Below are positions 2,826 through 26,286 of a DNA stretch of 28,899 nt, one piece after another. Both the position numbers and the translations under genes were made by a program. The notes under the pieces are model-generated. The model was not told the origin of the DNA. It saw nothing but the letters and a program-made list of their open reading frames with translations, and made no database searches. Numbering within the stretch: the first letter of the stretch is position 1; the number at the start of each line of letters is the position of its first letter. The stretch is from a virus, in the IMG/VR virus record IMGVR_UViG_3300006916_000265, positions 1 to 28,899 of that record; one strand, written 5' to 3'.

Positions 2826-2840
2826 GAGTAAGCTGTTGTA

Positions 2841-2881
2841 GAGGAGGGGGCGTTTTCTCTCTCACGAAGTGGCCACGCGCG
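2841..2881 (+). repeat. GC-rich dispersed repeat, copy 1
   Basis: A G-rich run leads into the pyrimidine tract GTTTTCTCTCTC, a short hairpin CAC-GAA-GTG (2863-2871), the palindrome GTGGCCAC (2869-2876) and CGCGCG. It contrasts sharply with the AT-rich surroundings. A second copy lies at 3447-3492, so the pair brackets the gene at 2897-3409. It ends 15 bases before that gene's ATG. Confidence 0.6.
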
Positions 2882-2885
2882 AATT

Positions 2886-2896
2886 AAATAAAGGTT
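2886..2896 (+). promoter_or_regulatory. Start-proximal AAATAAAGGTT element
   Basis: The 13-mer AAATAAAGGTTAT, which runs into the ATG at 2897, recurs exactly at 6499-6511 before the gene at 6516. A related sequence, AAAACGGTTATAGAT, precedes the gene at 4062. The AAAGG core could act as a weak ribosome binding site; here it lies only 2 bases from the ATG. It may instead be part of a promoter/leader unit. Confidence 0.4.
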
Positions 2897-3409
2897 ATGA
2901 GTAAATATGATTTCTATCCAATGTTATCTCCAAGAGAGATAATCGAACAAGGAGCCTTTGGTGGGTGTTACTTTGGTCTTCCAATAGAAGAGTATACCAA
3001 CTATAAGTATACCGAACTATTCAACTATCATTTCGATGGCTTAGACACAACCTTATACTTAGGAGAGACATATAAGCCTCGTATGAATAAGTTTAAGATA
3101 AGAAGCGGAATGCCATATGAGTATTGGAGAGATATGAATTGGATGCACGAAGATGACCCATATGGTTGGCTAGAGTGGTATTGTAAGTATAGTATGGGTA
3201 GAAGGCATCCAGACGACGATAGGCAGATTAGAAGATGGCAAGACTTTTGTGGAGTAAATGGTAGATGGAGACATAACATATATAAGAAGATATATAATAC
3301 CAAGGATTGGAATATAAGTCCAAGGGTACAACAATCATTGCTGCATTGGGGATATAAAGTCAATGAGGATGATTACATACAATGGAAAATTTTAAATAAT
3401 AAGTTATGA
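2897..3409 (+). CDS. Conserved Trp/Tyr-rich protein of unknown function
   Basis: This 170-residue soluble protein is unusually rich in Trp, Tyr, Asp and Arg. Conserved-looking blocks are F-Y-P-M-L-S-P-R-E-I-I-E-Q-G-A-F-G-G (6-23), W-M-H-E-D-D-P-Y-G-W-L-E-W-Y-C-K-Y (82-98), M-G-R-R (100-103) and D-D-R-Q-I-R-R-W (107-114). I recall the same block order from uncharacterised proteins of bacteria and eukaryotes, but I know no named function for the family. No catalytic triad or membrane segment is obvious; the many Asp/Arg/Trp residues suggest an enzyme or nucleic-acid-binding protein. The gene is flanked on both sides by a GC-rich repeat, so it may be a mobile cassette. Its TGA overlaps the ATG of a possible 59-residue frame at 3406. 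Confidence 0.6.
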   Translation: MSKYDFYPMLSPREIIEQGAFGGCYFGLPIEEYTNYKYTELFNYHFDGLDTTLYLGETYKPRMNKFKIRSGMPYEYWRDMNWMHEDDPYGWLEWYCKYSMGRRHPDDDRQIRRWQDFCGVNGRWRHNIYKKIYNTKDWNISPRVQQSLLHWGYKVNEDDYIQWKILNNKL

Positions 3410-3585
3410 ATTATAAACAAAGATTGAACAAGTACAAGAAAGAGTTGAGGGGGTGGGGGTTTTCTCTCTCATCACCGAAGGTGCCACGCGCATTTTCAAC
3501 TAACGTTTCAAATGAAACAACCATCCAACCTAAGAATCTATGCCATTATTCGGGTCTACGAAGTACTGCCGATTATATGGAATAA
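3406..3585 (+). CDS. Possible small protein (59 aa) spanning the second GC-rich repeat
   Basis: ATG 3406 overlaps the stop of the previous gene as ATGA, an arrangement seen elsewhere in this window. The frame begins with a basic helix-like N-terminus (M-N-Y-K-Q-R-L-N-K-Y-K-K-E-L) and then runs through the GC-rich repeat, giving G-W-G-F-S-L-S-S-P-K-V-P-R-A, to a TAA at 3583-3585. No family is recognised. The second half has no clear protein character, and the repeat may be non-coding. It may therefore be a chance frame or a gene remnant. Confidence 0.25.
   Translation: MNYKQRLNKYKKELRGWGFSLSSPKVPRAFSTNVSNETTIQPKNLCHYSGLRSTADYME
3447..3492 (+). repeat. GC-rich dispersed repeat, copy 2
   Basis: This is the same order as copy 1 at 2841-2881: G-rich run, GTTTTCTCTCTC, hairpin, then CCACGCGC. 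The hairpin here is CACC-GAA-GGTG (3473-3483), one pair longer than the CAC-GAA-GTG of copy 1, so the stem is kept while the bases differ. A related core, CGAAG-two bases-GCCACG, occurs inverted at 7019-7031. Confidence 0.6.
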
Positions 3586-4061
3586 TGTCTGAGAGGTAGT
3601 GTACGGCTGAGGCTACACATAGATACTAATTAGATTAGATACAATAGGAGAGATAAGCTATATAAGGTAGACCCACGGCTAATGATACTATATACTACTT
3701 AAGTATATTAATAATAGCGAGTGTATTATATATTTATATGTTCATATATGTATATAGATATTTCTTTATATATACTCGATATAAAACGTAAGGTAGGTGT
3801 ATGAAGTATAGGGGTAATTTATCAGGTGTGGGTGTGTCCCCTTCCGGAAAATTCTATAGACAGAAAATATTCTCCTTCAACAACTAATTATCCAGCTTTT
3901 TAAATTCCGATATTCGTAATGGCGGTATATGGCTTTAGTAACATTGTTTACCGTATTCTTACTAAATATAAGATATCATTACATATAATGTAAAAAGCAT
4001 AGGATAGTTGCTTATTCGAGATATTCTTCTTATATTAAGGTAAATTAAAACGGTTATAGAT
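3586..4061. other. Gene-poor AT-rich region with inverted repeats
   Basis: No convincing gene is seen over about 475 bases, the longest such stretch in the window. It contains a small hairpin GTGTA/TACAC (3599-3603 with 3614-3618). It also has a long AT-rich inverted repeat with arms CGAGTGTAT (3718-3726) and ATACTCG-side sequence (3770-3778) around an A/T loop. A TTCCGGAA palindrome lies near 3842-3849. A 28-codon frame at 3801-3887 is not convincing. The region could hold early promoters, an origin-like or recombination site, or decayed gene remnants. No tRNA-like cloverleaf was found by eye. Confidence 0.5.
4047..4061 (+). promoter_or_regulatory. Start-proximal AAAACGGTTATAGAT element
   Basis: This sequence directly precedes the ATG at 4062. 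It resembles the AAATAAAGGTTATATAT before the gene at 6516 and the AAATAAAGGTT before 2897, sharing the GGTTATA core. It suggests a shared leader or translation signal of accessory-region genes. Confidence 0.3.
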
Positions 4062-4590: not shown

Positions 4591-5049
4591 TTATATAATC
4601 TTAGATGTATTAGGATACGTCCACATATTCAATGATAGCCTACTGCCGCTATATACCGTTTCAACACCATGTAAGGTGTTACTACCATTAAACGTTATTA
4701 CATCTCCTTTATTTAGCCTTATGTATGTATCTTTATTAATAATAAAACGTCCTCCGCTACTGGCACTTCTGATTTCCGAAACTAGGGTTAAACTTGAATC
4801 CGTATCTCTATGGTTTCTTAAACTATCTCCTTTTTCGTATTCAGTTATATTAATCCAATTTTCGGTAAAATTATAAGGAATTGCAGGAAAAAAATTTTCT
4901 AAAATTTCTGTATATAGGGGGCCTTTATTTACATCGTATGCTTTCCAGCCTCCTCTTGGTGCATATATAGAGTTATCTTTATAAGTTTCAGCTACTCTAT
5001 CGCAGAATTCAGTACTTAGTAATTCTCTATGAATGGTGTAGTCAGCCAT
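4591..5049 (-). CDS. 2OG-Fe(II) oxygenase family protein
   Basis: The 152-residue protein carries the facial-triad pattern of 2-oxoglutarate/Fe(II) dioxygenases. The metal site is H80-x-D82 (N-H-R-D-T-D) and the distal His is H127 (N-T-L-H-G-V-E). R137 (G-S-R-L-S-L-N-M-W) is the likely 2OG carboxylate ligand. These fall on the expected double-stranded beta-helix spacing, and the length suits compact phage members. Prolyl hydroxylase-like and nucleic-acid-demethylating members share this fold; the substrate is not readable. Its start overlaps the end of the WavE-like gene by 8 bases (ATGGCTGA), so the two are translationally coupled. That favours a protein, sugar or lipid target over DNA. Convergent with the plus-strand gene ending at 4443. 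Confidence 0.75.
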   Translation of the reverse strand: MADYTIHRELLSTEFCDRVAETYKDNSIYAPRGGWKAYDVNKGPLYTEILENFFPAIPYNFTENWINITEYEKGDSLRNHRDTDSSLTLVSEIRSASSGGRFIINKDTYIRLNKGDVITFNGSNTLHGVETVYSGSRLSLNMWTYPNTSKII

Positions 5050-22672: not shown

Positions 22673-23413
22673 ATGAGTTCATTCAAAAATATAGAGAATC
22701 AATTTAATGAAAATGCTTCATACTCAGCGTTTAAAAAACTAGTACAACAAGATCTAGTAATTTCACACTACCAAGCGTCTAAAAAGTTTTGTACTAACGC
22801 TACTGTATACTTATTTGGTGATAATATAGAAGTAATAGACCCAACTCCTACTCCAACACCCACTCAAACACCTACACCTACTCAAACTCAAACCCCTACG
22901 CCAACTCAAACACCTACTCAAACTCCAACAGGTACACCTACCGGTACGCCTACAAATACTCCTACTCCTACTAACACATCAACACCTACAGGTACACCTA
23001 CAAGTACCCCTCCGGCTCCTTCAAATAGTGCAACACCAACACCAACGTCAACTAGTACGCCAACACCTACTAGCACTGTAACACCAACTCCTAGTAATAC
23101 CGCAGCATGTTATGCAACAGTATTTAGTGCTTCTTTAGAAACAATATTTAACGGAGCTTGTAGTGAAACTATAGCACAGGTATTATATACTGACTATAGC
23201 GGTTCATGGCCTCCAACTCAAGCATACTTAGACGGAGGAGGATCATTGACTGTATTTACAAATGACACTTGTACACCATCTCCTAATACTTATTATGCAT
23301 TCGATAGTAGTTCAGCAACAGGTACAGATGTTAATGCATTCTTAAGAGTAGATGATAGTATAGGAGATCATCCTGGAGATGTTGTTCAAATTTATAACTG
23401 TGATACGCCATAA
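22673..23413 (+). CDS. Fibre-like protein with VYLFGDNI anchor and Pro/Thr-rich stalk
   Basis: The 246-residue protein has three parts. An N-terminal domain (1-56) ends in [14 protein letters not shown] Pro/Thr-rich stalk follows (about 57-143; P-T-P-T-Q-T-P-T and P-T-G-T-P-T repeats with Ser interruptions). The C-terminal Cys-containing beta module (about 145-246) includes [19 protein letters not shown] and a late T-C-T-P-S-P. The anchor recurs in the next gene ([12 protein letters not shown]). Its TAA overlaps the next ATG by one base, so this looks like a tandem duplication with divergence in stalk length and tip. Confidence 0.7.
22840..23102 (+). repeat. Pro/Thr codon repeat, short stalk
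   Basis: These are degenerate tandem Thr-Pro codons with Gln, Gly, Asn and Ser inserts. Thr is written ACT, ACA, ACG and ACC and Pro CCT, CCA, CCG and CCC in irregular order, so the protein repeats more regularly than the DNA. Encodes the stalk of the protein at 22673-23413. Confidence 0.75.
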
Positions 23414-26286
23414 TGGGATTTTCTAACAACATATCATCCCTTATAGTTTATAAACAAGCTAAAAAAGAACAAACTGTCGATGTCAATAACAGTGTTTATC
23501 TTTTTGGAGATAATATACCTGTTATACTACCTTCACCAACTCCAACAAATACTCCAACAGTAACTCCTACTAACACAGTAACTCCTACTAACACGAGTAC
23601 ACCAACTCAAACACCAACTAATACTCCGACAGGAACTCCGACAGGAACTCCAACCAATACTCCAACGCCTACAAATACTCCAACTAACACTCCAACGTCT
23701 ACTAGTACCCCTACTAACACACCTAGTAACACACCTACAGGTACACCTACACCAACTAATACACCTAGTAATACACCGACAGGTACACCAACACCTACAA
23801 ATACTCCAACTAATACTCCAACACCTACTAGTACAGCAACTCCAACTAATACCCCTACTCCGACACTGGATTGTAGCTTTGAAATAGAAGTAGATGACGA
23901 ACCTGCACCAACAGCTACAAATACCCCTACTCCTACATCAACTGCTACTAACACCCCTACTCCTACTAATACACCTACTAATACACCTACACCTACATTA
24001 GATTGTAGTTTTGAAATAGATGTAGACGATGAACCTGCTCCTACTGCTACTAATACTCCAACACCGACTTCTACTGCAACGAATACTCCTACACCAACCA
24101 ATACTCCAACTAACACACCTACACCTACATTAGACTGTAGCTTTGAAATAGAAGTAGATGACGAACCTGCTCCTACTGCAACAAATACTCCTACGCCAAC
24201 TAGCACACCAACTCAAACTGCTACGCCTACTCAAACTCCAACTAACACTCCAACTAACACTCCGACAGGAACTCCAACAGGTACACCAACTGGTACGCCT
24301 ACAAATACTCCGACTAATACACCTACCCCGACTAATACTAGCACACCAACTCCTTCACCTACATTAGACTGTAGTTTTGAAATAGACGTAGATGATGAAC
24401 CTGCTCCTACTGCTACTAATACTCCTACGCCAACTCAGACACCAACTAATACACCTACTAATACACCAACTCAAACACCAACTCAAACACCGACTGGTAC
24501 TGCTACTAGTACACCAACTCCAACTGAAACATCTACTCAAACTCCAACACCGACTAGTACTCCAACTAATACACCAACTAATACTCCAACAGGAACACCG
24601 ACTGGTACACCGACTAATACCCCTACCGGTACACCAACTCAAACACCGACTAATACTTCTACCCCAACTAACACACCTACACCTACATTAGACTGTAGCT
24701 TTGATATTATAGTAACTGAAGAAGCAGCTCCAACAGCAACACCTACTCAGACACCTACTAGTACGCCAACTAATACTCCAACTAATACCCCTACAAAAAC
24801 ACCAACTAATACTCCTACTAATACCTCTACACCAACTAACACCCCGAGTAACACACCAACTAATACTCCGAGTAATACTCCAACTAACACTCCTACCCCA
24901 ACTAATACTCCAAGTAATACGCCAACTGGAACACCAACTAATACTCCAACTAATACTCAAACTCCAACTGGTACTGCAACGAATACACCTACACCTACAA
25001 ATACTCCGACTAATACACCATCTAACACTCCAACGAATACACCTACGCCTACAAATACTCCAACAAACACTCCTACTAATACTGTAACGCCTACGAATAC
25101 TCCTACCAAGACACCAACTAATACTCCAACTAATACTCAAACTCCTACAAAAACACCAACTAATACTCCTACTAATACTCCTACTAATACACAAACTCCA
25201 ACTAATACACCTACGAATACCGTAACTCCTACTAATACACAAACTCCAACTAATACACCAACACCTACGCCAACTCCATCGAGAGCTCAATACTCTATAG
25301 ATGTATTTTCATCTAACGGACCTATAACTACTACATCAGGTGGAGATGCTGCTGGAGGCTTAGCTTGTGAAGCTATTGGAGACGGAAGTAAACAGAAAAC
25401 TATAAAAATAGTTAAGTCTGTAGCTAACGGTGGAAGTAATGGATACCCAGAGATTGGAGATGATCTATACATCGGAACTACTAAACTATCTGGTGGAGGA
25501 TATGTTAGTTATGTAGACACTTCAGGTACTTGTGGAGTTGGTCCTCAAAATACTTACTTTGGATATAGTGCTGCAGGTATTGTAAGTACAGGATTAACTT
25601 GTTGTACAGAAACAACACCTACTCCTACACCTACAAACACACAAACTCCTACACCAACAAACACTCCTACAAACACTCAAACACCTACACCTTCTCCATC
25701 TCAAACTTCTTGTGTTGAAGTTACACTAGGTGAAGGTTCTACTTACGGTATAGCATGTGATGACTATGTCGACGGCGGAGCAACATTCTACATAGACAGT
25801 ACAGAGTTATCAACAGCAAATAATTTATATGATGCTGCTACTTGTTTAGTTGCTGACCATGCAACAGCTCAATACTACTCAGACGGTGAAATATGGAAAT
25901 ACTGGAACGGTAGTGAATTTACTACAGATGGAGATTGCGGTATATATGGATCTACTCCAGCATCACCGACACCTACTCCAACTCAAACACCTACTCCTAC
26001 TAACGCAGCAGTTACTCTATATAACATGACTTTAGGAACAGATGCAAGCTCAGGTCAAGACGCTTGCGATGATATAAACTTTGATGGAGGGTCGAGCTTT
26101 AAAGTTACTACTGACGATGGGTTCGGCGGTGGACAACTTGTTGACGGTTCAACTGTAGTTTATAATTCTTCTGGAACATCTGTAATAGCTAACACATACG
26201 TATCAGATGGGTCAAGTGTAGGTCTTACTAACGGTAGCGGGGTATGGACTCAATCAGGAGGCTCTGGAGGGATCTGTGGCTTATAA
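23413..26286 (+). CDS. Giant Pro/Thr-rich (mucin-like) tail-fibre-like protein
   Basis: The 957-residue protein has an N-terminal anchor (1-39, [12 protein letters not shown]) and a Pro/Thr tract (40-622), mostly T-N-T-P-T and T-P-T units. Five acidic islands of the form [13 protein letters not shown] start near residues 152, 196, 240, 318 and 426. Three beta-rich modules then follow, separated by short Pro/Thr linkers: A (about 626-735, shared with the protein at 16301), B (about 766-840; [13 protein letters not shown], ending in Cys) and C (about 864-957; ends G-G-I-C-G-L). B resembles small Cys-bounded modules in Bacteroidota and phage surface proteins. There is no signal peptide. Likely a long flexible fibre carrying several binding modules. 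The tract may be glycosylated, which is inference. Confidence 0.7.
23530..25278 (+). repeat. Long degenerate Pro/Thr codon repeat with acidic islands
   Basis: About 1.75 kb of Thr-Pro-Thr-Asn type codons encode residues 40-622 of the fibre-like protein. Synonymous codons are mixed so that long exact DNA repeats are few, apart from the island units, which start at 23866, 23998, 24130, 24364 and 24688 (spacings 132, 132, 234 and 324 bases). The low-complexity bias keeps other frames open, giving spurious Gly/Val-rich minus-strand and Leu/His-rich plus-strand frames. Confidence 0.8.

Follow-up and report, generated by a model that had tools for sequence, protein, structure and literature searches.

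The window analysed here is a stretch of viral DNA of 28,899 nucleotides (IMG/VR record IMGVR_UViG_3300006916_000265). Near one end its plus strand carries a gene for a conserved phage protein of 170 residues (positions 2897-3409, hereafter gene 2897). The earlier note on this DNA had described a pair of repeats, each with a G-run and a GAA-loop hairpin, bracketing this gene, and both pattern and covariance-model matches place the copies where they had been claimed. Copy 1 (2840-2880, plus strand; 56.8 bits with the covariance model), at what is called site B below, comprises a G-rich tract (2843-2852), GCGTTTT, CTCTCTC (2857-2863), a hairpin at 2863-2871 (CAC 2863-2865, GAA loop 2866-2868, GTG 2869-2871, with an extra U2862-G2872 wobble pair possible) and a CACGCGC tail (2874-2880). 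An AT-rich spacer (2881-2896) follows the tail, and the copy ends 16 nt upstream of the gene 2897 ATG. Copy 2 (about 3448-3491, plus strand; 56.2 bits), at site C, has CTCTCTC at 3464-3470, a hairpin at 3473-3483 (CACC 3473-3476, GAA 3477-3479, GGTG 3480-3483) and the CACGCGC tail at 3485-3491. The hairpin-plus-tail pattern occurs at exactly two places in the window and was not found in any of 100 dinucleotide shuffles. The copies do bracket gene 2897, but the second is not intergenic: it sits within an overlooked open reading frame of 59 residues (3406-3585, plus strand), the start of which overlaps the gene 2897 stop in an ATGA.

Gene 2897 has no PHROG or Pfam match. Its AlphaFold2 model has a pLDDT of 90.7, and a structure search returned one viral match, with no relative in the PDB and none of described function. 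The small reading frame ends in CHYSGLRSTADYME; about twenty loci have homologues of it, which contain the element in an identical frame and finish with CxYxG(L/M)xSxxAY or a variant. In other phages this C-terminal tail is carried by the gene 2897 homologues themselves, whereas gene 2897 of the window is a body without the CxYxGLPSPxAY tail. In the loci examined the tail lies either in gene 2897 or behind the site C element, never in both places, and in two loci (L310, 3989-4747, and L311, 1111-1869) body, element and tail are fused in one reading frame of 252 residues. These three arrangements of the tail indicate that the gene has been split or fused around the element.

Elsewhere in the window, a 2OG-Fe(II) oxygenase-like gene (4591-5049; phrog_61, E = 4.7e-10) and an adjoining gene for 311 residues without a PHROG match both lie on the opposite strand, and long Thr-Pro-rich repeat proteins with recurring blocks are encoded at 22673-26286.

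A search for further copies, as proposed in the earlier note, found many in related phages, so that the refuting case it had named, which included a lack of copies anywhere else, does not apply. A pattern scan of IMG/VR gave mostly chance matches together with one group of AT-rich contigs carrying the whole element, and a scan of genome contigs was swamped by chance matches. A covariance model built from 17 copies gave 55 matches in 50 loci, and each of 28 phage records, all picked for having a copy, held one to three. A second sample was picked by homologues of gene 2897, independently of the element, using an alignment as the query (a single-protein query found no relatives). This sample yielded 55 element matches, and 32 of the 47 loci listed from it had at least one element within the locus stretch examined. 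All 55 lie on the sense strand, but this bias counts for little, since these phages carry almost all their genes on one strand. Merging both samples left 68 distinct copies, all from Immutovirus-like phages. Among cultured phages, Flavobacterium phage immuto (MW353175), which forms a laboratory pair with Flavobacterium sp. LMO8, has two copies: the one at 42.4 kb is full, and the one at 64.8 kb, at site B, is degenerate. A site C element was looked for in immuto and not found. In two 170-kb genomes CACGCGC is nearly restricted to the element, and no element was found in 395 sampled Bacteroidota genomes in a search that was run without a positive control. Rfam 15 gave no match near its gathering threshold for the window element and downstream region, and only a single tRNA in six related loci; open-licence papers yielded no description of the motif. 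It is apparently an undescribed hairpin element of about 42 bases of Immutovirus-like phages, in the order G-rich tract, GCGYUU, CUCUCUC, C-GAA-G hairpin, invariant CACGCGC and AU-rich spacer. The invariance of the GAA and CACGCGC letters is partly a search effect, as the first search patterns demanded both; the covariance-model search of the gene-anchored loci was less bound by this requirement.

The earlier note had taken the two differing stems that nevertheless pair in the window as a sign of selection on structure, and for the GAA hairpin this is upheld by reshuffling and covariation tests. About ten kinds of fully paired stem were seen, including CACC/GGTG, CGAC/GTCG, GACC/GGTC, CTCC/GGAG, CAAC/GTTG, CCCC/GGGG and CGCC/GGCG. 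The mean stem length is 4.17 bp, as against 2.16 (s.d. 0.15) when the arms are reshuffled, and none of 2000 reshuffles came near the observed value, relatedness among copies being uncontrolled. The covariation score is 0.259, compared with 0.146 after shuffling. The many different complete stems make chance pairing unlikely, even though the shuffle ignores relatedness. Together, these data support strong selection on pairing in the GAA hairpin, with compensatory changes of the kind expected of a structured RNA element. A few copies have no GAA hairpin, namely immuto site B and the G001 copies; the G001 variants (L279, near 3747; L366, near 5768) retain the G-rich tract, the pyrimidine tract and CACGCGCGAATTTAA.

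Other candidate features of the element fared less well. An outer helix, P1, between the G-rich tract and CUCUCUC is paired in 91.6% of cells in the model alignment, but showed no gain over swapped partners (P = 0.56) and is unsupported by covariation. As the partner-swap test failed, P1 was dropped as a selected structure, its pairing being possible. G-U cells outnumber A-C cells by 94 to 14, mostly inside this helix, and this surplus is not counted as evidence for RNA. A pseudoknot between the GCG of the loop and the CGC of the tail is possible in most copies; it is unsupported by covariation and absent from several, window copy 2 among them. A coding motif was also rejected as a general explanation. 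The small reading frame at site C is real and in frame with the element, yet the element is kept both inside and outside reading frames, with no frame common to all copies, so coding alone does not account for it.

There are three recurrent locations. At site A the element comes immediately 3' of a histone-H1-like (Hc1) gene, for which the match in immuto (PF07432) has an E-value of 5e-5; an element directly follows nine of the 13 Hc1 genes found in 27 records. In several phages a terminator hairpin with a CCCUUCC arm and a T-run begins about 10-13 nt past the site A CACGCGC. At site B the element lies 14-20 nt before the ATG of the gene 2897 homologue, in the window and in L122, L103, L047, L297, L303, L337 and others, and similar spacing is seen before other genes. 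Site C, downstream of gene 2897, leads into a conserved noncoding region of about 300 nt. In the window this region runs from 3587 to about 3900 on the plus strand; its 5' part (3587-3734) was matched by nhmmer with an E-value of 1.8e-24, and the element ends 97 nt upstream. Wherever a distance was given for an nhmmer match to the region, the element lies 65-164 nt upstream, in L303 and L304 as judged by covariance-model matches. Gene-anchored loci without the region mostly have no site C element either; L326 has a weak element and no region. The middle of the region is AT-rich, RNAalifold found no common fold in its core, and a hairpin just before CTGAG, picked by eye, folds in about a dozen loci. 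By position, 12 copies have an ATG no more than 31 nt away, mostly at 16-20 nt, at least six lie just before a hairpin and T-run, and 33 precede the conserved noncoding region.

Selection on the hairpin, invariance of the tail, a nearly constant distance to start codons or terminators, and recurrence at homologous junctions (3' of Hc1, 5' of gene 2897 homologues, and at the head of the noncoding region) point to a conserved cis-acting element in a group of large Bacteroidota-infecting phages. Its reader would be a trans factor, and RNA is the simplest form in which it would be read. We put the probability that the repeats act in this manner, in the transcript, at about 50%. The putative factor would bind the hairpin together with CACGCGC and would decide what happens to the RNA at the junction, through processing, stability or read-through, while the neighbouring AU-rich spacer may stay available to the start codon or terminator that follows. 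Such a factor would probably be encoded by the phage, as the sampled host genomes yielded no copy of the motif. The suggestion of a regulatory RNA element, which the earlier note had offered as an option, is thus the best-fitting one as regards the selected hairpin and the recurrent positions; action as RNA is the part that we infer.

The other option had been that gene and repeat form a mobile or recombination-borne unit. The content between copies does vary. Two copies are 97 nt apart with no gene between them in L060, 607 nt apart in the window and about 1400 nt apart in L275; L277 has other genes between its copies, and in L330 the copies are 147 nt apart with gene 2897 upstream of both. 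The gene content beside the element accordingly differs among L060, L277, L330, L278, L275 and the window, as it would beside the PeSLs of T4-like phages, which are promoter-terminator stem-loop cassettes (Arbiol 2010; Comeau 2014, as cited in PMC4503421). The copies might then mark the boundaries of shuffled cassettes, with brief stretches of shared sequence at the junctions promoting homologous swapping of the intervening genes, a role that has been proposed for PeSLs. This would suit the absence, presence or replacement of gene 2897 between copies, the finding of one module N-terminus, MINSGREWDWMD, behind site B in L296 and at site C in L323 and L319, and the differing place of the C-terminal tail, in gene 2897, in the small reading frame or in the fused frame of L310. 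Homologous recombination, however, does not need selection on pairing with changing sequence and would be weakened by it, and the copies hold recurring positions across diverged phages. Moreover, in 15 of the 47 listed gene-anchored loci gene 2897 has no copy nearby, and none of the relatives examined showed an empty site at which one copy had stayed behind. Gene content is shuffled here, yet the copies keep their places. Because the content between sites B and C varies and gene 2897 sometimes lies outside the pair, the moving-unit reading is at best partial and a regulatory element fits better; cassette boundaries are an unlikely, though not a negligible, explanation of the repeats.

It is doubtful that the element is an attenuator or antiterminator whose G-rich strand has two alternative partners, CUCUCUC and the C/U-rich arm of the next terminator. 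The terminators at site A, with their CCCUUCC arm close behind the tail, would be suitably placed. For site C, the pairing energy between the element and a C-rich stretch ahead of the distal T-run was -24.5 kcal/mol with matched and -23.5 kcal/mol with swapped partners (P = 0.0085), a lead only, as relatedness was uncontrolled. On the other hand, no terminator is found at the site B copies, and G-rich and C/U-rich strands pair with nearly anything.

The GAA hairpin could equally form in single-stranded DNA. An extruded C-GAA-G hairpin, which we take to be one of the very stable C(GNA)G DNA mini-hairpins, might serve as a promoter or a replication-initiation site, with the conserved AT-rich region after site C as an origin. 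We regard such a DNA-level signal as improbable. No switch in GC skew was seen at any of the sites in two large genomes, which gives no support to an origin; promoters would make little sense within a reading frame or immediately ahead of a terminator. A search for the single-subunit RNA polymerase that would recognise an N4-type hairpin promoter (PF00940) gave no match in six phages, nor in any control genome. A self-cleaving small ribozyme that separates neighbouring transcripts would suit the small size, the conservation of CACGCGC outside the hairpin and the position at gene junctions, but is very improbable, given that the element matches no Rfam ribozyme and that some copies are missing the GAA hairpin and several the GCG:CGC pseudoknot.

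If the repeats are cis-acting elements of the transcript, a broader scheme can be imagined, although it is unlikely in this full form. One phage-encoded RNA-binding factor might read the hairpin-CACGCGC unit in the Hc1 3' UTR, in the gene 2897 leader and at the head of a noncoding RNA of about 400 nt that could act as sponge or effector, forming a phage-wide post-transcriptional regulon in which the element is kept even within the site C reading frame. The motif is present in cultured phage immuto and in dozens of uncultured relatives, and it is associated with both a histone-like gene and a noncoding region that is itself conserved. Bacteroidota phages are abundant and, to our knowledge, RNA control in them has been little studied.

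The element can be set against several known systems. The put and nut antitermination sites of lambdoid phages are RNA sites, and a phage RNA hairpin near terminators would look alike; here, neither boxA nor the two-hairpin arrangement of put was seen, and after many copies there is no terminator. Animal histone mRNAs carry a 3' stem-loop, and the site A hairpin lies directly 3' of a histone-like gene. This is an analogy only: sequence, loop and genes are unrelated, other genes have the element on their 5' side, and no relationship is claimed. Candidate RNA motifs from comparative genomics (for example PMC2864571, PMC8040213) likewise combine conserved sequence and a covarying stem with no assigned function, and the comparison with the present element was made at the level of Rfam 15, no family of which matches it or its downstream region. 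PeSLs share with the element a short conserved stem-loop between phage genes and variable gene content nearby. They consist of an early promoter and a stem-loop terminator, whereas here no promoter was identified, a terminator follows only some copies, and the CACGCGC tail, the GAA loop, the few copies at recurring positions and the one copy within a reading frame are further differences. The PeSL, as cited in PMC4503421, is the nearest described idea.
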